Source: an uncultured Clostridia bacterium
GTDB lineage: Bacteria > Bacillota > Clostridia > Lachnospirales > CAG-274
DNA length: 64,000 bases
Direction: 5' to 3'
Assembly (NCBI GenBank): GCA_949948985.1
Contig: CATLIG010000003.1
Coordinates: 62,001 to 126,000, forward strand
The notes beneath the pieces were generated by a model that worked only from the letters and a program-made list of their open reading frames with translations, did no database searches and was not told where the DNA came from. Position numbers and translations under genes: made by a program. Shown here piece after piece: positions 26,177 through 48,247 of this stretch. Within the stretch, counting starts at the first letter, position 1. Every line of letters starts with the position of its first letter.

Positions 26177-26361
26177 AGAGATAGAAAGTAATTTTCAATC
26201 TATAAGTTTTTTTGTGTTTCAGGTAGAGCTTGATTGTAATTTTAGAAACACGTCATAAAATCAATAAGCCGGATAAACAGTGATATTTTTATATTTTATG
26301 TCTATATATTGAACTTCTCTATAGTTTGGGACAAAATTTTATTTATAGGAGGAATAAATTA

Positions 26362-27321
26362 ATGGATAATATAGAAAACATAGAATGGGACGAACGATAT
26401 AACATTGGCGTAAGTAACATTGACAAGGCTCATAGACGTTTATTTTCTATTGTGAAAAGATTGTTTGATACTGTTGAGAAAAATCAAAATAAAAAACATT
26501 CTTGTTATGAGGGTATTAAATATTTAAGCAATTATGCAATAACTCATTTTGCTGAGGAAGAGGCATATATGAGGTCAATTGGATACAAAGGCTATGAAAG
26601 GCATAAAGAGAAACACGACAAAATGAAAAATGAAATAGTACCTGCTCTTGAGGCTGAATTGGAAGAGGCGGATTATTCCGGTGAAGCGGCGAGTCGTTTC
26701 CTTGGAGTATGCTTAGGCTGGCTTACAGGACATACTATGCTTGAAGACCGTGCCATTACAGGTGAAATCGGAGGTAAAAAAATCATTGACATTAATAATG
26801 ATATTAATACGGAAAAGCCTATTATAGCTGGGGAAAAAGCAACAAAGGAAGAAGAGGAAAAGGTAATTGATGCAGTTGGTGAAATGATTTCTGTTATTAT
26901 GAAAGAAATGTTTAAGATTGATGCAAAAATTACCGACAGACATTATGACGGAGAATATTTTGGAAAGCCGGCATATTATCGTGCTATTTATAAAAATAAA
27001 AAGGGCAGAAAGATAAAAATTCTTATGATTATTGAGGAAAAATTGATTTTAGGTACGGTTGGCTCAGTAATGAATATTAGGTTTAATGTAGTTGATAATG
27101 CCGTTTTATCGGCGGCTATGCAGGTTTCTCATCATGTGATGCAAAGCATAAGCCAGCATTCAAAATTAAACAGCAGTAAAAAAGACCCTTTTACTCTTGA
27201 ACGGGAAAGCATATTGAGCGCAAAACATTTTAATGAAAAATTTGTTGCCAGTTATTTTGATTTTAACATACTTTTTGACACTGAAAAAGGTAAATTTGCT
27301 TTATGCGCTAAGATATTGTGA
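26362..27321 (+). CDS. Bacteriohemerythrin with C-terminal domain of unknown type
   Basis: The protein has 319 residues. Residues 1-135 form a hemerythrin domain that holds a di-iron centre for O2 binding. All seven expected ligands can be placed: His24, His62, Glu66, His81, His85, His124 and Asp129, with family spacing (AHRRLF, HFAEEEAYM, HKEKH, HTMLED). Residues 165-319 form a second alpha/beta domain that I cannot name; its layout recalls CheX/CheC-like phosphatases, but the catalytic E-x2-N pattern is not evident. The start ATG 26362 has TAGGAGGAA upstream. There is no signal peptide, so it is cytoplasmic. In an anaerobe it may sense or scavenge oxygen, possibly for aerotaxis. Confidence 0.88.
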   Translation: MDNIENIEWDERYNIGVSNIDKAHRRLFSIVKRLFDTVEKNQNKKHSCYEGIKYLSNYAITHFAEEEAYMRSIGYKGYERHKEKHDKMKNEIVPALEAELEEADYSGEAASRFLGVCLGWLTGHTMLEDRAITGEIGGKKIIDINNDINTEKPIIAGEKATKEEEEKVIDAVGEMISVIMKEMFKIDAKITDRHYDGEYFGKPAYYRAIYKNKKGRKIKILMIIEEKLILGTVGSVMNIRFNVVDNAVLSAAMQVSHHVMQSISQHSKLNSSKKDPFTLERESILSAKHFNEKFVASYFDFNILFDTEKGKFALCAKIL

Positions 27322-27557: not shown

Positions 27558-28301
27558 ATGTGTAAAAAATTTATATCTTTTATGACCGCGGCAATGATGA
27601 TGATTTCATCAACTACTGTTTTTGCTGACAGTTCGGTTCTGGTAAAAGTAAACGGCGAGATGGTTGAGTTTGACCAGCCCCCCGTAATTGAGAATGGAAG
27701 AACTCTTATTCCTTTCAGGGGGGTTCTTGAAAAAATGGGAATTACTGTTGACTGGGTTTCAGACGATAAAACGGTTATTTGTACAGATGATGAGAAAATT
27801 GTTTTTCTTCCTATAGGTCAGACGGAAATGACAGTGGTTTCGGCAGATGAGGAAATAATTGATTTTGACGGGAAAATTGATGGTGAAAAGATTTCTCTTG
27901 ACGTTCCTGGAAAAATTATAAACGGAAGAACACTAGTGCCTATACGGGCTGTTGCCGAAAGTTTTAACGCTGACGTAAACTGGGACTCCGAAACCAAAAC
28001 AGTTGAAATTAATACAAGTTCCGATGCAGATGTAAATATGGAAGAACTTGAAAAAAAGACCGAGGACTTTAGTAAAATAATATTACTGTTAAGTGAAAAT
28101 GTTAATAATTTAGATGATGTTGACGAAAGCGAGTTTAATGAAATGTCAGAAGAATTACAGGATTTTTATGACAATGTTCTTACTCAGGAAGGAATATATG
28201 AAAGTCAGGATAAAATTGATGAGATTACAGAAAAGCTTGAATACTTTATAAACAGGTTTAAAGATTTTCTTGTAAGAAATGGTATTGATGTGGAAAATTA
28301 A
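27558..28301 (+). CDS. Secreted protein: stalk (copper amine oxidase N) domain plus helical C-terminal module
   Basis: The protein has 247 residues. The signal peptide spans residues 1-23 (cleavage after VFA). Two stalk half-domains run from about 27 to 150, each with the hallmark phrases PPVIENGRTLIPFRG and GKIINGRTLVPIRAVAESF; no enzyme active site is present despite the family name. Residues 155-247 are helical and end with KIDEITEKLEYFINRFKDFL then VRNGIDVEN. This ending is shared with the proteins at 39708-40424, 41529-41861 and 43681-45168. ATAAGGAGG precedes ATG 27558. It is an unlinked member of the secreted family clustered at 39.7-46.6 kb. Its cellular role is unknown; surface exposure is inferred. 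Confidence 0.88.
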   Translation: MCKKFISFMTAAMMMISSTTVFADSSVLVKVNGEMVEFDQPPVIENGRTLIPFRGVLEKMGITVDWVSDDKTVICTDDEKIVFLPIGQTEMTVVSADEEIIDFDGKIDGEKISLDVPGKIINGRTLVPIRAVAESFNADVNWDSETKTVEINTSSDADVNMEELEKKTEDFSKIILLLSENVNNLDDVDESEFNEMSEELQDFYDNVLTQEGIYESQDKIDEITEKLEYFINRFKDFLVRNGIDVEN

Positions 28302-28328: not shown

Positions 28329-28366
28329 AAAAAATTATAAAAAGAATTTATTTTTTATAATTTTTT
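28329..28366 (+). terminator. A/T-only hairpin between the stalk-domain gene and proC
   Basis: AAAAATTATAAAAAG pairs with TTTTTTATAATTTTTT. It could end the stalk-domain transcript; being purely A/T it is a weak terminator. Confidence 0.5.
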
Positions 28367-36069: not shown

Positions 36070-39000
36070 ATGAGTTCACAAAACGGCGAACAGGCTATAA
36101 CTTTTGATTATATTAAAATTGGTTTGGCGTCTCCTGAAAAAATTCTTGATTGGTCATACGGTGAAGTTAAAAAACCCGAAACTATTAATTACAGAACTTT
36201 AAAACCTGAACGAGATGGTTTGTTCTGTGAGAGAATTTTTGGACCAAGCAAAGACTGGGAATGTCACTGCGGTAAATTTAAAAGAATACGATATAAAGGT
36301 ATTATATGCGACAGGTGCGGCGTTGAGGTTACAAAAAGCAAGGTAAGGCGTGAGAGAATGGGGCATATAAAACTTGCAGCCCCTGTTTCTCATATATGGT
36401 ATTTTAAAGGTATTCCCAGCCGTATGGGTATTATACTCGGTATGTCCCCAAGGGCGCTTGAGAAAGTTCTTTATTTTGCCTCTTATGTTGTTCTTGACCC
36501 AGGTGAGAAAACAGGTCTTTCTTATAAAGATTTGCTTACAGAGAAAGAATACAGAGATGCCAGAGATAAATACGGGGATACTTTCAAGGTTGGTATGGGT
36601 GCCGAATCTATTAAAATACTCCTGCAAAGCATAGACCTTGAAAAAGAATCAGTAGAGCTTAAAAAAGAGCTTAAAAACAGTACAGGTCAAAAACGTGTGC
36701 GTATTATTAAAAAACTTGAGGTAATCGAATCTTTCAGGCTGTCAGGGAATAAACCAGAATGGATGATTCTTGATGTGATACCTGTTATTCCTCCTGATTT
36801 AAGACCTATGGTTCAGCTTGACGGAGGAAGATTCGCTACATCTGACCTTAATGACCTTTACAGACGTGTAATTAATAGAAACAATCGTCTTCAAAGACTT
36901 CTTGATTTACACGCTCCGGATATTATTGTAAGAAACGAGAAAAGGATGCTTCAGGAGGCTGTAGACGCTCTCATTGATAACGGAAGAAGAGGCAGACCCG
37001 TTACGGGACCCGGAAACAGAAGCCTTAAATCTCTTTCCGACCTCCTTAAAGGTAAGCAGGGACGTTTCCGTCAGAATCTTCTTGGTAAACGTGTTGATTA
37101 TTCAGGTCGTTCGGTTATTGTTGTCGGTCCTAATCTTAAAATATATCAATGCGGTCTTCCTAAAGAAATGGCTATTGAGCTTTTCAAGCCTTTTGTAATG
37201 AAAAAGCTTGTTGAGGATGGTATGGCTCATAATATTAAATCTGCCAAACGTATGGTTGAAAGACTCCAGACAGAGGTATGGGACGTATTGGAAGATGTTA
37301 TTAAAGAACATCCGGTTATGCTTAACCGAGCTCCGACTCTTCACAGACTTGGCATTCAGGCATTTGAGCCTGTTCTGGTTGAGGGCCGTGCGTTAAAGCT
37401 TCACCCTCTTGTTTGTACAGCGTATAACGCCGATTTTGACGGTGACCAAATGGCTGTTCATGTTCCCTTGTCTGTTGAGGCCCAGGCTGAATGCAGATTT
37501 TTGCTCTTAGCTCCGAATAACCTTCTGAAACCATCTGACGGAGAACCTGTTACTGTTCCGTCACAGGATATGGTTTTGGGAATTTACTATCTTACCCTTG
37601 AAAAAGACGGTGAAAAAGGAGAAGGCAAGGTATTTAAAGACGAAAATGAGGCTTTGCTTGCTTACGATAATCACGCAATCAGTCTTCATGCTAAAATTAA
37701 AGTAAGAAGAACATTTGTAATTGACGGAGAGGAAAAATCTAAAATTGTTGAAACAACAGCAGGCAGAATTATTATAAATGAGATTATTCCACAGGATATA
37801 GGATTTGTGGACAGAAGTATTCCGGATAATATATTTAAATATGAAATTGATTTCCTTACCGATAAAAAAGGTTTGGGAAAAATTATTAACAGGTGTATAA
37901 ACAAGCACAGCGCTACGGAAACAGCGGTTGTCCTTGATAATATAAAAAGTCTTGGATTTAAGTTTTCTACAAGAGGAGCTTTGACTGTTTCCGTATCTGA
38001 TATGGAAATTCCTAAGGAAAAGTTGGAGTATCTTTCTGAAGCTGACAAAGTTGTTGATAAAATTACAAAAATGTACAGAAGAGGTCTTATGACTGACGAG
38101 GAAAGACACGCTAAGGTTATTAAAGCATGGGAAGTAGCCGATGACAAGATTACGAACGCTCTTCTTGCCGGTCTTGGTAAATACAATGATATTTATATGA
38201 TGGCTCATTCAGGAGCCCGTGGTTCTAACAGACAGATTAAACAGCTTGCGGGTATGCGTGGTCTTATGGCTTCACCATCGGGCGAAACTATCGAACTTCC
38301 TATAAAGGCTAATTTCCGTGAGGGACTTTCAGTTCAGGAATACTTTATCTCAGCTCACGGAGCCAGAAAAGGTCTTTCTGATACGGCTCTTCGTACAGCC
38401 GATTCAGGTTATCTTACACGCCGTCTTGTTGATGTTTCTCAGGAAATTATTATTCACGAATGGGATTGTGCAGAAGGCTGTGATGAAGTACCGGGTATGT
38501 GGGTAAGTGCGTTTATGGATGGACAGGAGGTCATTGAGCCTTTATCTGACCGTATAAGAGGAAGATATGCTGTTGAGGATATTTATAATCCGAAAACAGG
38601 AAAACTTATTGTTGAGGCTGATACTATGATTTCTTCCGACCAAGCGGAAGCTGTTGAGGCGGCAGGAATTAAAAGAGTTCATATAAGAACTATACTTTCG
38701 TGTCATGCAAGAAAAGGTGTATGCTCAAAATGCTACGGAGCTAATATGGCATCCGGCAGAATTGTAAGAATAGGCGAATCTGTTGGTATTATTGCCGCTC
38801 AGTCTATAGGTGAGCCGGGTACACAGCTTACTATGCGTACATTCCATACGGGCGGTGTATCAGGAAATGACCTTACACAAGGTCTTCCTCGTGTAGAAGA
38901 ACTTTTTGAGGCAAGAAAACCAAAAGGACTCGCTATTATATCAGAAACAGGCGGAAAGGTTACTGTTACGGATACCAAAAAGAAAAGAGAGGTTGTCGTT

Positions 39001-39636
39001 ATAAATGAAAACGGCGATACTAAGGATTATCTTATTCCTTATGGCTCTCGTATAAAGGTTCTCAACGGCGATATTATTGAAGCCGGTGACGAGCTTACCG
39101 AAGGAAGTGTAAATCCTCACGATATTCTGAGAATTAAAGGAATAAGAGGAGTACAGGACTATATGATTCAGGAAGTTCAGCGTGTGTACAGACTTCAGGG
39201 TGTTGATATAAACGATAAACACATTGAGGTTATTGTAAGGCAGATGCTTAAACGAATCAAAGTTGAGGAAAACGGTGATACAAACTTCCTTCCAGGAAGC
39301 CTTATAGACTGGCTTGAGTTTGAGGCGGTAAACAAAGAAATGATTGAGCAGGGACTTGAACCCGCAAACGGTTCGCGAGTTTTACTTGGTATTACAAAAG
39401 CCGCTCTCGCTACGGAATCGTTCCTTTCAGCCGCGTCTTTCCAAGAAACTACAAGAGTGCTTACAGAGGCGGCTATTAAAGGAAAGGTTGACCCGCTTAT
39501 AGGTCTTAAAGAAAATGTTATTATTGGTAAGCTTATTCCTGCCGGTACAGGTATGAACACATACAGAAAAATTGACCTTAAACTTATTGACAAAGAAAAG
39601 GTTATGGAAGAAGAAACGGAAGATTTAAGCGTATAA
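36070..39636 (+). CDS. rpoC: DNA-directed RNA polymerase subunit beta', RpoC
   Basis: The protein has 1188 residues, the usual Firmicute length without large insertions. The N-terminal zinc ribbon is [32 protein letters not shown] carries the three aspartates that hold the catalytic Mg2+. The bridge-helix region and trigger loop ([13 protein letters not shown]) and the second zinc cluster ([13 protein letters not shown]) are intact. AGAAAGGAG precedes ATG 36070. It is co-transcribed with rpoB and ends at a hairpin (39660-39697), with no rpsL downstream. Confidence 0.98.
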
Positions 39637-39707: not shown

Positions 39708-40424
39708 TTAATTTAGCGTTATACCATTTTTTAACGCAAAATTTTTCAGATTTTTTATATATATTTTATATTGATTTTGTATTTCAGCAAGTTTATCGGT
39801 ATCAGTTATATTACCATAGTTTTTTACAGTACGTTTATATGCGTTTATTTGATTTAAAATAGTCACAAATTCTTCTGATGCACTTTCGTCAAGAAGATAA
39901 CGCTTTTGTGTTATTTGATTGATTATTGAGTCAAGTTCATTTGATGTTGACGTATTTTTAGCTTTAGAATATGTTATATCTGTAAGGGTTGTTTCATTTG
40001 TGTCAATATCTATAAGACGTTTATCAGCATTCCATTCTACTTTAGCGTCAAACGCCTGTGAAATCGCCCTCAAAGGAATTAGTGTACGATTATTTATGAT
40101 TTTTGGAGGAACGTCAAGGTTTTTTATGGTTTTGTCAACGGTCATTTTTTTTGAACCTATTTGCATAATAACTGATTTTGTTTTTTTACGGCAGATTATT
40201 GTTTTAGTTTTTTCATTCCATTCCACTGACGCTCCGAGGGCCTCTAAAATTGTACGGAAAGGTACTAGGGTTGTACCATTTTCAATTATTGGTTTTTGCT
40301 CAAATTGAAGAAATTTACCATTTAACCTGACTTTTATAGGAGGGTCATATTTAGCATAAGCGGGTACGGTAAATAACAGCGTTATAACTGTGAAAAAAGT
40401 TATTACTTTTTTTAATATGGACAT
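39708..40424 (-). CDS. Secreted protein: stalk (copper amine oxidase N) domain plus helical C-terminal module
   Basis: The protein has 238 residues. The signal peptide ends near residue 24 (VPAYA). The stalk domain covers about 28-145 with PIIENGTTLVPFRTILEALG and PKIINNRTLIPLRAISQAF. The last 90 residues are helical and end TDKLAEIQNQYKIYIKNLK then NFALKNGITLN, the module shared with 27558-28301 and others. TAAAGGAG precedes the start. A promoter is predicted at 40493-40522. It converges on rpoC. The function is unknown. Confidence 0.88.
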   Translation of the reverse strand: MSILKKVITFFTVITLLFTVPAYAKYDPPIKVRLNGKFLQFEQKPIIENGTTLVPFRTILEALGASVEWNEKTKTIICRKKTKSVIMQIGSKKMTVDKTIKNLDVPPKIINNRTLIPLRAISQAFDAKVEWNADKRLIDIDTNETTLTDITYSKAKNTSTSNELDSIINQITQKRYLLDESASEEFVTILNQINAYKRTVKNYGNITDTDKLAEIQNQYKIYIKNLKNFALKNGITLN

Positions 40425-40492
40425 TATAAAAACTCCTTTACATTAATATTTGTTATTAAAAATATTTTTTTCAGGTTTTTTCTGAAATTGTT

Positions 40493-40522
40493 ATAATACC
40501 TCCTAAATTAAAATATGTACAA
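40493..40522 (-). promoter_or_regulatory. Promoter of the 39708-40424 stalk-domain gene
   Basis: On the minus strand TTGTAC (40517-40522), an 18-bp spacer and TATTAT (40493-40498). A small TTTCAG/CTGAAA hairpin (40469-40487) lies in the leader. Confidence 0.5.
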
Positions 40523-40681
40523 GGTATAAGTTTTATTACATTAAACTTCTTTAAAAATTTTACATCAATACATAAGAAAGAAAAAAATATTTTATAAGAG
40601 TAAAGTGTTAAAAATAAATAAACTAATGGCAGGTGTAAATATAAACTATTATAACATATGAGATACAGAATGTAAATATAT

Positions 40682-40726
40682 AAAAAAGACATACGGAAAG
40701 TAAACAATCCTGTATGCCTTTTTTTC
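40682..40726 (-). terminator. Terminator after the 40760-41272 lipoprotein gene
   Basis: On the minus strand GGCATACAGGA pairs with the TCCGTATGTC arm and ends in TTTTTTA; the opposite strand also has a T-run. Confidence 0.75.
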
Positions 40727-40759
40727 TGAAAAAATTAATATGCCTATGTAAGCTAATTA

Positions 40760-41272
40760 TTACTGAATGCCAAGCTGGTCAGCAGACATTTCTGTAATTG
40801 TAATATTGTTCTTAGCGGCGATGTCTCTGAATTTTGCGTCAATTTCTGTAACTTTTTTAGTAAGGTCAGAAAAATCAGAATCAGCTGTTAAAGTAGTCAT
40901 TGTCTGCTGAAGTTCCTGAGCTTCTGTTTGAAGAGCAACAAGTTCTGCCTGAGAGTCAGAGTCTAATTTAGTAGCGTTTTGAGCAATAGCCATAGCTGAT
41001 GAAGTCATTTTTACAATAGCTTCTTTTGTTTCAGCAGGCATTGCGGCATTTATATCAGCGGCACTACTGGAATTAGAATTATTATCAACAGCAGCAACTG
41101 TAGTGTCTTCAACATCAGTTTTGTCATCAATATCAGTTTTGTCATCACTGGCAACAGTAGTAGTTTCAGCAGTAGTAGCCTCAGTAGTAGTAGTTTTGTC
41201 ATCTCCACCGCAACCTGCTAATAAAGAAAATGATAAAACAGAAACACCTAAAATTGATAAAAATTTTTTCAT
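40760..41272 (-). CDS. Lipoprotein with Thr-rich linker and helical C-terminal module
   Basis: The protein has 170 residues. Its lipobox signal is MKKFLSILGVSVLSFSLLAGC, so Cys21 would be lipidated. A low-complexity linker of Thr, Asp and Ala (about residues 28-65) carries the helical module away from the membrane. The module (about 75-165) contains AMAIAQNATKLDSDSQAELV and ends FRDIAAKNNITITE. The 42038-42385 protein is its close paralogue, with nearly the same signal and module but no linker. TTAAGGAGA precedes the start. It has its own promoter and terminator. The function is unknown. Confidence 0.85.
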   Translation of the reverse strand: MKKFLSILGVSVLSFSLLAGCGGDDKTTTTEATTAETTTVASDDKTDIDDKTDVEDTTVAAVDNNSNSSSAADINAAMPAETKEAIVKMTSSAMAIAQNATKLDSDSQAELVALQTEAQELQQTMTTLTADSDFSDLTKKVTEIDAKFRDIAAKNNITITEMSADQLGIQ

Positions 41273-41336
41273 TATAAAAATCTCCTTAAATTAAAATATA
41301 AATTGTGAACAAAGTATGAACTTTATTTATAATGAT

Positions 41337-41365
41337 ATTATAGCACATAAAAATTGATATGTAAA
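41337..41365 (-). promoter_or_regulatory. Promoter of the 40760-41272 lipoprotein gene
   Basis: TTTACA (41360-41365), a 17-bp spacer and TATAAT (41337-41342) with an extended -10 TG. The spacer end TTTTTATGTGC and the leader are nearly identical to those of the paralogue at 42451-42479. Confidence 0.8.
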
Positions 41366-41528
41366 CAGTTTTTTATAAATTTAAAATTTTATAGTAAAAT
41401 AATAGAATAATAATGGTATATTTTATATGTTTACAAGGTAATCATACAAATAATTTTATTTTACCCGCTTTAATGTTCTGTAAATTGTTATAAATAGATT
41501 AATTTGTTTTGCGAAAAATTTGTTAAAT

Positions 41529-41861
41529 TTAATTTAATTCAATATTATTTTTAGAGGCTATATTTTTAAGTTTAGTAATATAATCATTATATTGTTCAGT
41601 AGTTTCATCAATTTTTTCCTGCGAGTTAAATTCAGATGGATTATCATTTATATTTGCTACATATCTATAAATTTCTTTTACAATTAATGAGTATTCTGAA
41701 TTTGTATCTACCGATAGTTTATTAATCTGAGACTGCATTGTTTCTAATACAGAAGTAAGTTTTTGTGCGGCTTTTTGATTTTCGCTTTCATCAATACCGC
41801 CGCAGCCTGTCACTAAAACAAAAAAAGATATACATAGACATAAGGATAAAATTTTTTTCAT
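41529..41861 (-). CDS. Small lipoprotein consisting of the helical module
   Basis: The protein has 110 residues. Lipobox: FFVLVTGC, Cys20 by position. The mature part is one helical module: QKAAQKLTSVLETMQSQINK, then SQEKIDETTEQYNDYITKLK and NIASKNNIELN at the very end. This ending is close to those of the stalk-domain proteins, so it appears to be the bare module on a lipid anchor. GGGAGG precedes the start. A family B end lies just upstream (41880-41899). The function is unknown. Confidence 0.82.
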   Translation of the reverse strand: MKKILSLCLCISFFVLVTGCGGIDESENQKAAQKLTSVLETMQSQINKLSVDTNSEYSLIVKEIYRYVANINDNPSEFNSQEKIDETTEQYNDYITKLKNIASKNNIELN

Positions 41862-41879
41862 TTATAAAACCTCCCATAT

Positions 41880-41899
41880 CAGACCTGTTTTAAAATAAC
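41880..41899. repeat. Solo terminal repeat of family B
   Basis: AGACCTGTTTTAAAATAACC resembles the left end of family B; no partner end was found. It lies just upstream of the 41529-41861 gene. Confidence 0.35.
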
Positions 41900-41960
41900 C
41901 ATAATGTACTTTTGGAAATATTTTTCACTATGATTGTTTTAAAAAGGTTATGTTTTTATT

Positions 41961-42013
41961 AAAAAAGCAACATACAAGAAAATATATAAATAAATCCTGT
42001 ATGTTGCTTTTTT
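41961..42013. terminator. Terminator after the 42038-42385 lipoprotein gene
   Basis: AAAAAAGCAACATACA pairs with TGTATGTTGCTTTTTT; it is symmetrical and could serve both strands. Confidence 0.8.
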
Positions 42014-42037
42014 ATGTAAGAAAATTAAAATTTTTGA

Positions 42038-42385
42038 TTATTTTAAATCATTAATATCTAATTCTTTGATTTCAATACCGTTTTTATCAGCAATATCTCT
42101 GAATTTTTGGTCTAAAGCCGTCATTTTTTCAATAATTTCTGTATAATCAGAATCTTCAGTCAAAGTTGTGGCAGATGAAGCAAATTCCTGAGCTTCAGCC
42201 TGAAGGTCAGCGAGCTCTTTCTGAGAATCAGAATCTAATTTATCCATATTCTGAGCAATAGCCATAGCAGATGATGTCATTTTTTGAGCAGCAGCCTCAG
42301 CGTCTTCTTTGCTGGCTCCGCCACAGCCTACAAGTAAAGAAAGTGATAAAACAGAAACACCTAAAATTGATAAAAATTTTTTCAT
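42038..42385 (-). CDS. Lipoprotein consisting of the helical module (paralogue of 40760-41272)
   Basis: The protein has 115 residues. The lipobox signal MKKFLSILGVSVLSLSLLVGC differs at two positions from the 40760-41272 paralogue. The module contains AMAIAQNMDKLDSDSQKELA and ends FRDIADKNGIEIKE. The Thr-rich linker is absent. TTAAGGAGA precedes the start. Promoter, leader, signal and module are all similar to the paralogue, so the whole transcription unit was duplicated. The function is unknown. Confidence 0.86.
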   Translation of the reverse strand: MKKFLSILGVSVLSLSLLVGCGGASKEDAEAAAQKMTSSAMAIAQNMDKLDSDSQKELADLQAEAQEFASSATTLTEDSDYTEIIEKMTALDQKFRDIADKNGIEIKELDINDLK

Positions 42386-42450
42386 TGTAATATCTCCTTA
42401 AAATTAAAATGTGAATAATGTAAATAAATTGTAAACTTATTTATAAAGAC

Positions 42451-42479
42451 ATTATAGCACACAAAAATCGGTTTGTAAA
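42451..42479 (-). promoter_or_regulatory. Promoter of the 42038-42385 lipoprotein gene
   Basis: TTTACA (42474-42479), a 17-bp spacer and TATAAT (42451-42456), with the same TTTTTGTGTGC spacer end and extended -10 as at 41337-41365. Confidence 0.8.
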
Positions 42480-42533
42480 CATTTTTTTTTAAAATTTAAT
42501 ATTTTTTATAAGTATATAAAATCAATATATTTT

Positions 42534-43667
42534 TTAAAATTCAACTGTAACATCGATTATTCCGGCAGCATAAGGCGCTATTTCATACTGATTAAAATAA
42601 AATACAATTCCTTTTTCAGTCAAATAGAAATTATATTTGTTTATAGTATCAAGAGTTTCTTTTGAATCCTCAAAAAATGATTCAGGCTCGGAATCTATTT
42701 TCTCAATAAAGAGTTTTTTTGCTTGTTCGATAATTTCTTCCGAGGTTTTATTAAATAATTTTTTTGATATATCATCCAGAGTTACTTCTTTTTCTGTATC
42801 AAGGTCGTATATCTTTGAGGACATCGCATTTGTGGGGTGTGCTCCGCCTGTATACAAAGATACATATTCATTTATTGAAACAAAATTATCTGTTTCGATT
42901 ATATCATACATAAATATAAATTCATATGGATTAAAGTTTTCACCGAACTCATTACGAAAATCTGTTAATTCTTTTATTATATCATCTTCAGATGAAGAAC
43001 CAAATACATCTGTAATACTAGCCGAAAAAAGTTCTTTTGCTGTGGTTAATTTACTTTTGATAAATTCTGAGGTTTTTTCGCTTAATTTATCGGTATCAAA
43101 GATTACTTCTGAATGAATTAATACATTGCCGTCATTATCTTTCAGGTCATATACATTTGAATTATTCTCTGATTCTGATGTTTCCTGTGACTGATTTTCA
43201 GATGATTCTAAAGGTTTGGTTTCTGAAATACCGGATTTTATCTCAACAGTTTTTGTTTCTCCGTTCCAGTTTACGTCAGCTCCAAAGCTTTCGGAAATAG
43301 CACGGAGAGGAACAAATGTTGTACCGTCTATAATTTTGGGTGAAACATCAAGAATGATTTTTTTACCGTCTACATCAATTTCATTTGAACCTATTGAAAC
43401 AGAAACGGTTTTATCGGCTTTTTTACAGGTAATTGTTTTTTCAGCCGAATTCCATAAAACCTCTATTCCCATAGCTTCTGAAACAGCCCTGAAAGGAACC
43501 AGAGTTCTGCCGTTTTCAATTACGGGAGCCTGTTCAGATTCAACAGGAGTTTCGTTTACTATGATTTCTATTCTGTCAGAACCAGAGTCTGCGAATATAT
43601 TAGAGGTCGTAATTTGTGAGAATATAAAAGTTGATGTTAAAAATAAAGAGGTGATTTTTCTTTTCAT
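42534..43667 (-). CDS. Secreted protein: stalk (copper amine oxidase N) domain plus DUF3298 domain
   Basis: The protein has 377 residues. The signal ends near residue 26 (NIFA). The stalk domain spans about 31-150 with APVIENGRTLVPFRAVSEAM and PKIIDGTTFVPLRAISESFG. A Ser/Glu/Gln-rich linker (about 155-180) leads to a C-terminal domain of about 200 residues like those of PdaC and RsiV (DUF4163/DUF3298), with SLYTGGAHPTNAMSSKIYDL and the end FYFNQYEIAPYAAGIIDVTV. It starts 13 bases after the previous gene and is the last of a three-gene operon. It lacks the K-N-G-I ending of its neighbours. Its role is unknown; in RsiV this domain binds lysozyme. Confidence 0.88.
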   Translation of the reverse strand: MKRKITSLFLTSTFIFSQITTSNIFADSGSDRIEIIVNETPVESEQAPVIENGRTLVPFRAVSEAMGIEVLWNSAEKTITCKKADKTVSVSIGSNEIDVDGKKIILDVSPKIIDGTTFVPLRAISESFGADVNWNGETKTVEIKSGISETKPLESSENQSQETSESENNSNVYDLKDNDGNVLIHSEVIFDTDKLSEKTSEFIKSKLTTAKELFSASITDVFGSSSEDDIIKELTDFRNEFGENFNPYEFIFMYDIIETDNFVSINEYVSLYTGGAHPTNAMSSKIYDLDTEKEVTLDDISKKLFNKTSEEIIEQAKKLFIEKIDSEPESFFEDSKETLDTINKYNFYLTEKGIVFYFNQYEIAPYAAGIIDVTVEF

Positions 43668-43680
43668 TTTAATTTACTCC

Positions 43681-45168
43681 TTATATGTTTATTTTATTTT
43701 TTTCAGCGAGTTGCTTTAATTTCTCAGTATATTTTTTTAATTTCTCAACGGCATCGTTGATTTTTTCCTGAGTATTAAGTCTTTGATTGTTTCGGGAAAT
43801 GAGTTTAATATATTCACTTATTTCCGATGAAAGAGTTTTGTATTCAGATTTTCCTTTTATGAGGTTGTTTTGAAAAGCTTGTTCAAGACGCATATAGATA
43901 TTTGAAAGTTCACGCTCACAGGAGGTGTATTCTGTTTTATCAAGGGCAGGCGTCTTTTTTGAAACTACATACGATTTCATATCCTCAAGATAAATTCGTA
44001 TTTGTTTTACATATTCGTCAAATTGCTTTTGTGAGGTAAGTTCTAGGTTGTTAAACGGTGTTTCGGCATAAGTGTAAAAAGACGTATTGGGTGTAATTTT
44101 ATCACTTGCCTCAGGGTTTTCCTGTACAGAAACAAATAACTCGTTTAAAATATTTATATATTCAGAATAGTCAAATAACACGATATTATTTTTCTTGGCA
44201 AAATTTTTTAAATTATCAAGGCATATATTGAATTTATCAGAAATTTTATCCGGCTGAGTTTCGCTGTATTTATAATGGTCTATAAAACAAGATAATATAT
44301 CAAATTTGATTTTATCAAGTTCCTCAGAGGCTTTATCCTTAAAAAAAGAGGAAATATGAAAAAGAGTAATACAAAGTTCAGATAAATTATTATCCGGACA
44401 ATAATATTTACGCAAAAAATCAATACAGTTTTTAACGCTTGTTTCTGAATAAATTAAACGGTTGTTTCTTTTAAAAATGTCAGTAACTTTATTTACATAC
44501 TCTTCTTTTCGAGATTGTGTTTTTTTCATAGCCTCAGGAGTTTGAGTTTCAGCCGTTTTATCGTCTTCCGTATATTTACCGGAGTTAAAATACTCAAATA
44601 TAAGTTTTTTTGCCTCAATTACAGAATTATCGTCAAAATCCTTTAAATTGGCGATTAGTCTTATATTAACAGCGTTTAACTCATTATCCGGCAGATAATT
44701 TGATGCTGTGTAATCATAGCTGTAATTGTCATTTATTCTTATAAAATCAATAATATTTTCATTAGGAATAAATACAGAGCTTGAGTTTAAAATCCTTGAC
44801 GCTGTATAGTCAGATATATAAGTGATTCCATTTTTAATTTTTGACGGTGAGGCTGTATCTGAATAAACTTGTTTGTTTATTTTGAATGAGTCTGAACCTA
44901 TTGTCAAAGAAAAGGTGTTTTTTCCATCTGTGCCGTATATTGTTTTTTCAGCAGAATCATATGTTATTATATATCCATTCTGTTCTAAAAATGAACGCAG
45001 AGGCAAATAGGTTTCGTGATTGGCGTCGTCAAAAAATACAGGATTATCAAGTTTTATGGCTTTTCCGTTTACAAGTACCTCAGTATCGGAATCAAAGTCA
45101 GCGAAAGTATGTACTGATGATAAAAATATCGTTGCTGTAAAAAGTAAAGCAGTTAATTTTTTTTTCAT
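43681..45168 (-). CDS. Secreted protein: one stalk domain plus repeated helical modules
   Basis: The protein has 495 residues. The signal peptide ends near residue 22 (VHTFA). The stalk domain runs from about 27 to 130 (TYLPLRSFLEQNG) and is diverged in its second half. About 360 residues of helical sequence follow. They contain FNICLDNLKNFAKKNNIVLF midway and end TQEKINDAVEKLKKYTEKLK then QLAEKNKINI. The two K-N-x-I endings suggest two or more copies of the helical module. ATG 45168 is ten bases after AAAAGGAG; GTG 45177 is too close. It is the middle gene of an operon. The function is unknown. Confidence 0.85.
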   Translation of the reverse strand: MKKKLTALLFTATIFLSSVHTFADFDSDTEVLVNGKAIKLDNPVFFDDANHETYLPLRSFLEQNGYIITYDSAEKTIYGTDGKNTFSLTIGSDSFKINKQVYSDTASPSKIKNGITYISDYTASRILNSSSVFIPNENIIDFIRINDNYSYDYTASNYLPDNELNAVNIRLIANLKDFDDNSVIEAKKLIFEYFNSGKYTEDDKTAETQTPEAMKKTQSRKEEYVNKVTDIFKRNNRLIYSETSVKNCIDFLRKYYCPDNNLSELCITLFHISSFFKDKASEELDKIKFDILSCFIDHYKYSETQPDKISDKFNICLDNLKNFAKKNNIVLFDYSEYINILNELFVSVQENPEASDKITPNTSFYTYAETPFNNLELTSQKQFDEYVKQIRIYLEDMKSYVVSKKTPALDKTEYTSCERELSNIYMRLEQAFQNNLIKGKSEYKTLSSEISEYIKLISRNNQRLNTQEKINDAVEKLKKYTEKLKQLAEKNKINI

Positions 45169-45184
45169 TGCAGACACACTCCTT

Positions 45185-46639
45185 TTAATCTTTTATTCCC
45201 ATTTTAGCGGCAAGATATTTCCAATCACCAATAAGCTGATTTATATTTTTTACACAATCTTCTATTTGCAGATTGTTCATACTGATAATAGTGTCAAATG
45301 CAGAAGAAAATTCAGGATTATTCTGATTTAATTTAAACAGTTTAGAGTAAGTATCAAGGGTTTTTATATATAAAGCATTATATCGTCCCTGAAAATCAGA
45401 ATATTTTGGTTTTAATGTTTTACCGTTTGTATCTGCCTCAAGGTCAGAAGCGTTTTTAATAAAATTTTTTAAATATAAAGTAAGATTAAGGTCTGCCTTT
45501 ATAAGCGGTTTTATATCTATTCTTTCGGCGGGACGAAGTGTTTTTTTGCTTATTCCAAGATTGATATAAATTGTTTTTACTTCTTCAAGAATTTCTTTTG
45601 CTTCTTTTTCAGCGGAGGCAAGATTTTCAGAATCAGGCATTAACTTATCAGGGTCGTCTGAAAGGTATTTGTCTTTAAACTTTGTCATTTTTTTGATGTG
45701 CTTGTTATACGGTTTTTCCGATAAAGCGTATTTTTCCTTAAATATATAGGGTTTATCAAGAGTATCGTTGATTTCTCTTACTGTATAATTTTCGATATAT
45801 TTTTCATAAAGGTCTATATCGGACATATAGTCGGCATAATCAGGTATCTTACAGTCGGTTTTTTTTGTAAAGTTCTCAATTTCCGATATTAGAACGTCTA
45901 TTGAATCTTCTGAAAGATTGAAAACTTTTTTAGCTCTTTTCATTTCGCAGGCATTTATACTGCTGTAGTTTATATTTATTTTTCCGAAAGGCGTATCGGA
46001 AGAAGTATCAAAAATTTGGGAAAAATATTCAAAATCTTCCTTGTAATTTTCATATTCCGGTTTTAAAATTTTTGCCAACGACATATAAGAACCTTTATCA
46101 AGGCACATTTTATCGTTTATAGCGTAAATATACAAAGACAGTTTTGTAAGTTTTGCTGACAAAACGGCATCCTCTGTATTTACCGGAGAGTATATAAATA
46201 CAGTCTGGAGTTCGCTGTCCCAGTATACCTCTGAGTTAAAAGCGTGAGAAATGGCTCTTAAAGGTATATAAGTTGTGCCTTCTATAAGAGTGGGAGGAGC
46301 ATCAAGAAAAACATCGGAATCTTCTGATGATTTCATTATATGGTTATCTATTTCAAAAGTTAAATATATATCATCTTTTGAGCAAATAATTGTTTTTGTT
46401 CTTGAATCCCAGTAAACGGCAATATTCATTGAATTTGCTATTTCTCTTAAAGGTACTAAAGTAGTACCGTCTTTTATAATGGGAGCTTTTGTCAAATTCA
46501 AAATATTATCGTCAAGCTCCACAATTATTTTATTATTTGAAACAGAATAAGAATAAGCGAATATATTGATATTTACTGACGATAATATTATTGTGAGTAA
46601 AACAATAGTTATTAAAAGTTTTGTTGAATATTTTATCAT
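45185..46639 (-). CDS. Secreted protein: stalk domain plus long helical region
   Basis: The protein has 484 residues. The signal sequence is within residues 1-29. The stalk domain spans about 33-150 (KAPIIKDGTTLVPLREIANS, then PPTLIEGTTYIPLRAISHAF). The remaining 330 residues are helical and highly charged, ending NQLIGDWKYLAAKMGIKD, a variant of the shared ending. AAGGTGA precedes ATG 46639. It is the first gene of the operon with 43681-45168 and 42534-43667, with seven- to thirteen-base gaps after start correction. The function is unknown. Confidence 0.85.
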   Translation of the reverse strand: MIKYSTKLLITIVLLTIILSSVNINIFAYSYSVSNNKIIVELDDNILNLTKAPIIKDGTTLVPLREIANSMNIAVYWDSRTKTIICSKDDIYLTFEIDNHIMKSSEDSDVFLDAPPTLIEGTTYIPLRAISHAFNSEVYWDSELQTVFIYSPVNTEDAVLSAKLTKLSLYIYAINDKMCLDKGSYMSLAKILKPEYENYKEDFEYFSQIFDTSSDTPFGKININYSSINACEMKRAKKVFNLSEDSIDVLISEIENFTKKTDCKIPDYADYMSDIDLYEKYIENYTVREINDTLDKPYIFKEKYALSEKPYNKHIKKMTKFKDKYLSDDPDKLMPDSENLASAEKEAKEILEEVKTIYINLGISKKTLRPAERIDIKPLIKADLNLTLYLKNFIKNASDLEADTNGKTLKPKYSDFQGRYNALYIKTLDTYSKLFKLNQNNPEFSSAFDTIISMNNLQIEDCVKNINQLIGDWKYLAAKMGIKD

Positions 46640-46813: not shown

Positions 46814-48247
46814 TTAATATGCTTTTCCCCATACCACCATTTTTTCGGCAGGTTTTCCACAGCATACGCATACATCTGATATATGTTCCTGCTCAAAAGG
46901 CATACACCTTGACGATGCTCCTGTATCTTCTTTTATTTTGTTTTCACATTCCTCATTACCACACCACATAGCTTTTATGAAACCTTGATTTGTTTTAAGG
47001 ACATTTTTAAATTCTTCCATATTTTTAGCTTCCGATGTTTTTGAGTTTCTGTGTTTTGTTGCTTTTTCAAGAAGAGATACTTGAATATTGTCAAGAAGAG
47101 AAAGAACTTCATCCGCGATATCAGAAAGTTTTACAGTTACTTTTTCACCGGTATCACGTCTGGCAAGAACAGCCTGATTATTCTCTATATCACGTGGGCC
47201 AAGTTCTACTCTTATAGGAACACCTTTCATTTCATATTCGCTGAATTTCCATCCCGGAGATTTATCAGAATCGTCAAGACGTACACGGCAGACTTTTGAA
47301 AGCTCTTTCATAATTTCAGACGCTTTTTCAAGGACTCCTTCTTTTTTCTGCATTACAGGAACTATTATCACTTGTATAGGAGCGACTTTTGGAGGAAGAA
47401 CAAGTCCGTTGTTGTCGCTGTGAACCATTATGAGTCCGCCTATAAGACGTGTGGAAACACCCCAAGAGGTTTCGTGAACATACTGAAGTTTATTGTTTTT
47501 ATCCGTATACTGAATATCAAACGCTTTGGCGAAACCGTCGCCGAAATTGTGGGAAGTACCGGACTGAAGAGCCTTTCCGTCATGCATAAGACTTTCTATT
47601 GTATATGTGGATTTAGCGCCGGCAAATTTTTCTTTATCGGTTTTCTTACCTTTTATTACAGGCATAGAAAGAACTTTTTCGCAGAAATCAGCATATTCGT
47701 TAAGCTGTGCTATTGTTTCTTCCTGAGCCTCTTCTGCCGTAGCGTGAACTGTATGACCTTCTTGCCATAAAAACTCAAGACTTCTCAGAAAGGGTCTTGT
47801 GGTTTTTTCCCAGCGCACAACAGAACACCATTGATTATACAATTTCGGCAAGTCACGGTATGAGTGAACTATATTTGAGTAATGTTCACAGAAAAGAGTT
47901 TCTGATGTAGGTCTTACGCAAAGTCTGTCCGTAAGTTTTTCTTCACCGCCGTGAGTAACCCATGCAACTTCCGGCGCAAAACCCTCTACATGGTCTTTTT
48001 CTTTTTGAAGAAGACTTTCAGGTATGAACATCGGCATATATACGTTTTCGTGTCCTGTAGCTTTAAATCGTTCATCAAGCTGTTTTTGAATAAGTTCCCA
48101 TATAGCGTATCCATAAGGACGAAGTATCATACAGCCGCGTACGGAAGAATAATCAATCAAATCAGCTTTTTTTACTATATCTGTGTACCACTGCGCGAAA
48201 TCGTCTTCCATAGATGTTATCGCGGTAACCATTTTTTCTTTTGACAT
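46814..48247 (-). CDS. proS: Prolyl-tRNA synthetase, short (archaeal/eukaryotic-like) type
   Basis: ProRS charges tRNA-Pro with proline. At 477 residues it belongs to the short type that lacks the bacterial editing insertion. Class II motifs are present: motif 2 [20 protein letters not shown] with the preceding RPTSET loop, and motif 3 [14 protein letters not shown]-type sequence downstream. [15 protein letters not shown], typical of the short type, is intact. The C-terminal domain has cysteines (WCGNEECE and CVCCG), a zinc site, and ends in Tyr as in this class. AAAAAAGGAG precedes ATG 48247. Its predicted promoter (48406-48434) is separated from the gene by repeat A11. No T-box leader is recognisable. 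Confidence 0.96.

Follow-up and report, generated by a model that had tools for sequence, protein, structure and literature searches.

In the window, i.e., the whole stretch of 64,000 nucleotides from an uncultured Clostridia bacterium analyzed here (G000:C3:62001-126000), seven adjacent genes, all read leftward, are flanked by two genes that read as rpoC (36070-39636) and proS (46814-48247). The rpoC product has its closest match, at 80% identity, in a genome of Anaerotignum, and by this comparison alone the organism, a gut bacterium, was placed as a relative of that genus. A sequence-only reading of this DNA had proposed that six of the seven, together with a gene elsewhere in the window, end in one helical module that belongs to no named domain. 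The question is whether these charged endings are really a single domain and, if so, what such a domain does in the cell envelope.

We have examined the eight products, named here by the lowest coordinate of their genes. Three are predicted bacterial lipoproteins, with an N-terminal signal sequence that, as read from the translations, ends in a lipobox cysteine. Two of them, 41529 (41529..41861, minus strand, lipobox LVTGC, module at 41532-41786) and 42038 (42038..42385, minus strand, LLVGC, module at 42056-42307), contain scarcely more than the module, as had been claimed, and in 40760 (40760..41272, minus strand, LLAGC, module at 40784-41032) it is located behind a linker described before as Thr-rich and found to be Thr/Asp-rich. 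The other five are secreted proteins with the stalk domain PF07833 (49.8 to 132.5 bits, cut-off 24.2); a stalk had been claimed for two of them, 27558 and 39708. Gene 39708 (39708..40424, minus strand) has the stalk at 40011-40325 (E 6.3e-37) and the module at 39711-39959, and 27558 (27558..28301, plus strand), which forms the second locus, has them at 27645-28010 (E 1.5e-33) and 28041-28298. An open reading frame beside the latter (26326-27321) reads like a bacteriohemerythrin (HHE-type) protein. In 43681 (43681..45168, minus strand; stalk 44791-45072, E 3.6e-13) there are two module copies, an internal partial one (44167-44349, residues ~280-333) and a C-terminal one (43684-43932), detected by the profile search at E 1.2e-11 and 3e-21; the suspected repeat is real and appears also in the 43681 orthologue. 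Gene 42534 (42534..43667, minus strand; stalk 43239-43559, E 7.4e-39) lacks the module, and its C-terminus matches DUF3298 (E 8.7e-15, 55.9 bits, over the cut-off) and weakly PdaC (E 1.4e-4, 23.3 bits, under the cut-off of 29.1). Finally, 45185 (45185..46639, minus strand; stalk 46193-46513, E 1.9e-26) includes a long helical region.

A C-terminal module of ~80-85 residues is common to 39708, 40760, 41529, 42038, 43681 and 27558. When profiles were built from five of these proteins, the sixth was recovered in six of six cases, with E-values (computed for an assumed 30,000 sequences) of 7.7e-8 for 39708, 6.5e-10 for 27558, 5.9e-12 for 43681, 8.6e-15 for 41529, 3.6e-16 for 40760 and 6e-19 for 42038, while the top open reading frame of the window outside the family was found at 0.95 or worse. 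The real modules scored 33.5-69.1 bits, against 6.6-17.2 bits for 200 shuffles of each left-out module, and the better pairs among the six aligned with z values of 5.8-27 over shuffles. A profile made from relatives of the same genus, free of any sequence from the window, also found all six. With a profile from the three lipoproteins of G004, a genome of another genus, 41529 (6.2e-8), 27558 (6.6e-7) and 43681 (0.003) were found and 39708, 40760 and 42038 were not clearly found. The tails and helices quoted before are all present as written; the tail, which reads N-x-I/L/V in 25 of the 29 copies, comes after the third helix, in which the polar positions (Q, D/E, K, K, N) are conserved. The idea that the endings are merely convergent charged amphipathic helices is suggested by their charged helical composition and by scattered weak coiled-coil matches, but against it stand the leave-one-out recovery well above shuffles and other reading frames of the window, a tree that groups the copies by orthologue and a confident fold prediction. 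Chance similarity is already refuted for the six proteins, and as a general explanation convergence has a negligible probability.

Gene 45185 is a different matter: the claim stood clearly for five of the seven adjacent genes and for 27558, and it could not be demonstrated for 45185, whose ending YLAAKMGIKD had been taken as a variant of the shared tail. Its C-terminus did not match the family profile, profile-profile comparison included, and its pairwise alignments were unsupported against shuffles; the lack of a profile match rules it out as an ordinary member, and its helices may be convergent. However, it aligned over the whole module with the C-terminal copy in a membrane-anchored paralogue found in this genome and in G028 (L051/L052, see below) at E 5.5e-5 and Prob 66%, versus 0.078 for the reversed control, and both contain the motif GKTLKxxYxxYQ; this E-value is optimistic because the comparison was chosen after the motif had been seen. 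The last ~90 residues of 45185 (about 45188-45457) might then be a divergent module, linked to the family only via this paralogue. The single-sequence fold (pLDDT 47) was unusable, and the protein is conserved at 64-72% across the genus.

We have folded one copy, the module of 41529, using as alignment the five other copies of the window and nothing else. AlphaFold returned a confident bundle of three main helices (4-24, 31-53 and 61-84; pLDDT 91.8, pTM 0.82), in agreement with the shared helical fold that had been anticipated. No model of Pfam, NCBIfam or PHROGs matched the module above cut-off, which bears out the claim that it has no named domain, and this includes any enzyme family, catalytic domain or known binding family. 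Against solved structures the best Foldseek E-value was 2.4, and the best VIA-align Z in the PDB was 9.6, for the designed bundle 9rgy (2.4 A over 82), where the tool takes about 13 as the meaningful level for helical bundles. By sequence, the PDB gave only coiled-coil or designed bundles and HA2 stalks, a resemblance that we attribute to composition, and the Rfam search of the window gave no match. We also considered that the module could be a divergent FIVAR domain (PF07554), which is present elsewhere in the same genomes, has a similar length and likely a similar topology, and could be aligned globally over its whole extent, with its TQxEIDxAxxxL stretch set against SQEKIDEITEKY. The register looked right, but the local profile-profile score (13.2) was at the chance level given by reversed and shifted FIVAR controls (mean 13.8, maximum 15.2), and FIVAR is not one of the 25 Pfam families that most of the 29 members matched. 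We rejected membership, and consider a FIVAR origin highly improbable.

The family is narrowly distributed. Clear matches were obtained in five of the 392 genomes of the order, four of this genus plus G004 (another genus of the same family). Two further weak matches near 1e-4 in the order and six weak ones in the class were found; matches at E 1e-5 to 1e-3 were treated as background, and distant copies may have been missed because not every first-look candidate was scored. The profile search that had been suggested for the Lachnospirales thus supports a real family and not a general domain of the order. In plasmids and phages, tblastn with 41529 gave no match. As far as contigs allow, rpoC and proS flank the cluster throughout the genus, while its middle genes vary: G027 has nearly the same genes, G029 fewer, and in G028 there are three genes and the contig ends beside them. 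Likewise, in the relatives 27558 stays before the gene at 28365 (it reads as proC), and its counterpart is doubled in G027. In G028 that counterpart (L047:7133-8492) occupies two reading frames, the result of a frameshift, an assembly error or decay.

Within this conserved setting the module proteins diverge fast, with orthologues of 41529 at 35-46% identity compared to 94-95% for rpoC. The copies in the tree cluster by orthologue and not by genome (few deep branches are well supported), and since this grouping holds across the genus most duplications predate it. Recent duplication is suggested only for the pair 40760/42038 and, in G027, for the two modules of a lipoprotein that has them in tandem (L045:4595-5560). 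The former is a recent duplication that included the promoter, being visible at the DNA level and extending to upstream sequence 77% identical. The signal region of the G027 lipoprotein resembles that of 40760 (73% over 26 aa), which suggests that different modules may have been placed behind one signal. The notion of an undescribed extracytoplasmic module that has been duplicated and has moved between anchors is supported by the fold, the lack of a family model and the several anchors, while the ongoing local duplication that went with it is mostly contradicted by the orthologue-wise tree.

The window contains three exact matches to the promoter-like pattern TTTACA-17-TATAAT, where 0.07 would be expected, and each of them is in the cluster on the minus strand: before 42038 (42451..42479, with TG), before 40760 (41337..41365, duplicated with the gene) and about 220 nt before 39708 (40648..40676). 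Four more were detected in the fetched relative loci, each upstream of a module lipoprotein gene. The version with TG at a fixed position before the second hexamer appears seven times genome-wide, two of them in the cluster. Judging from these patterns, strong and separate promoters are probable. Downstream of 42038 (41967-42007) a hairpin with a long stem and then a run of T was read by eye as a terminator; it is of a kind that the scan, given its limit on loop size, would pass over.

A common three-helix fold says little on function. Lipoproteins and stalk proteins contain the module, and so do tandem arrays and a transmembrane protein. The last is encoded elsewhere in this genome (contig C13, L051:5421-6191), has two module copies, one strong and the other weak, lies next to SLH and LysM/G5/M23 genes, and has a like gene in G028 (L052:3507-4232). 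The stalk domain is also fused to Amidase_3 in two proteins of this genome, which fits wall targeting, and occurs in wall hydrolases according to a published surfaceome (PMC4137172). The variable anchors, these fusions and the published occurrence suggest to us that the stalk is the wall-placing part and the module the binding one. Our tentative preference, at somewhat below even chances, is that the module is a non-catalytic interaction domain: an autonomous three-helix bundle of the cell envelope that lipoproteins would hold on the outer face of the membrane, stalk proteins probably at the wall (a placement that we infer from the fusions) and a third form on a transmembrane anchor. It would act by binding a protein, with another module or an envelope protein shared by the copies as the likeliest candidates. 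The lipoprotein modules of the window are acidic (pI 4.1-4.7) and the C-terminal modules of 39708 and 43681 basic (8.9 and 9.2), so that membrane-side and wall-side copies could link membrane and wall. If acidic and basic modules did pair, this would be a Gram-positive membrane-wall tether unlike those described. There are exceptions to the charge pattern, as the module of 27558 has a net charge of -18, the G028 orthologue of 39708 a pI of 5.2, and the tandem lipoprotein modules of G027 are near neutral; a genus-specific tether of this kind seems to us improbable.

Two other roles are unlikely, to a similar degree. The fast divergence beside conserved neighbours would also suit an exposed role, that of an outward-facing adhesin or host-factor-binding bundle whose changes reflect exposure to host or phage, in the manner of small three-helix surface proteins of other Gram positives. 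Its structural matches include a staphylococcal complement inhibitor (2qff; Z 6.9, 2.1 A over 68) and, from pneumococcus, the N-terminal domain of CbpA (2m6u; Z 6.8, 3.9 A over 73). However, both Z values are below the helical-bundle level and below those of designed bundles, the PDB sequence search found no relation to either protein, and a bare lipoprotein module should sit near the membrane, beneath the wall. Alternatively, the module might modulate wall enzymes, binding amidases or endopeptidases (stalk-Amidase_3, LysM-G5-M23) and controlling their site of action. The two Amidase_3 proteins with a stalk point in this direction, as does an M23/G5/LysM gene that, in this genome as in G028, immediately precedes the membrane-anchored copy, but that neighbourhood is one locus type only and the rpoC-proS cluster itself contains no amidase or endopeptidase gene. 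We retain, with the reservation expressed above, the non-catalytic interaction domain.

Whatever its partner, an envelope domain absent from Pfam, NCBIfam and PHROGs has now been delimited and has a confident fold and a conserved genomic position, so that its proteins can be annotated together, as a single family, and put to the test. The stalk domain PF07833, the role of which is poorly understood, gains a small recurrent partner, the binding of which is open to measurement.

Five proteins of the window have, above cut-off, the same stalk domain as the PF07833 secreted proteins of Firmicutes. Elsewhere in this genome the stalk is joined to partners that include Amidase_3, CBAH and flavodoxin, and a match to CHAP falls just under the cut-off; what differs here is that the C-terminal partner domain is undescribed. 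A likeness to the lysozyme receptors of the RsiV type (DUF4163/DUF3298) is limited to 42534, with its DUF3298, its weak PdaC match and its sequence resemblance to 3cyg, the structure that RsiV was reported to match best (PMC5014341); the domain search gave no match to DUF4163 as such. The C-terminus of 42534 is possibly a relative of the lysozyme-binding part of RsiV, although the protein is secreted, is fused to a stalk and lacks an anti-sigma part, and some RsiV-type proteins do not bind lysozyme (PMC5014341). The three-helix bundles of the PDB, designed and natural, have the same overall helix arrangement as the module, but this arrangement is common and no sequence relation was shown. FIVAR, too, is a small helical module found outside the cytoplasm in surface proteins of Gram positives; the module described here differs from it by its C-terminal NxI tail and its frequent lipoprotein context.
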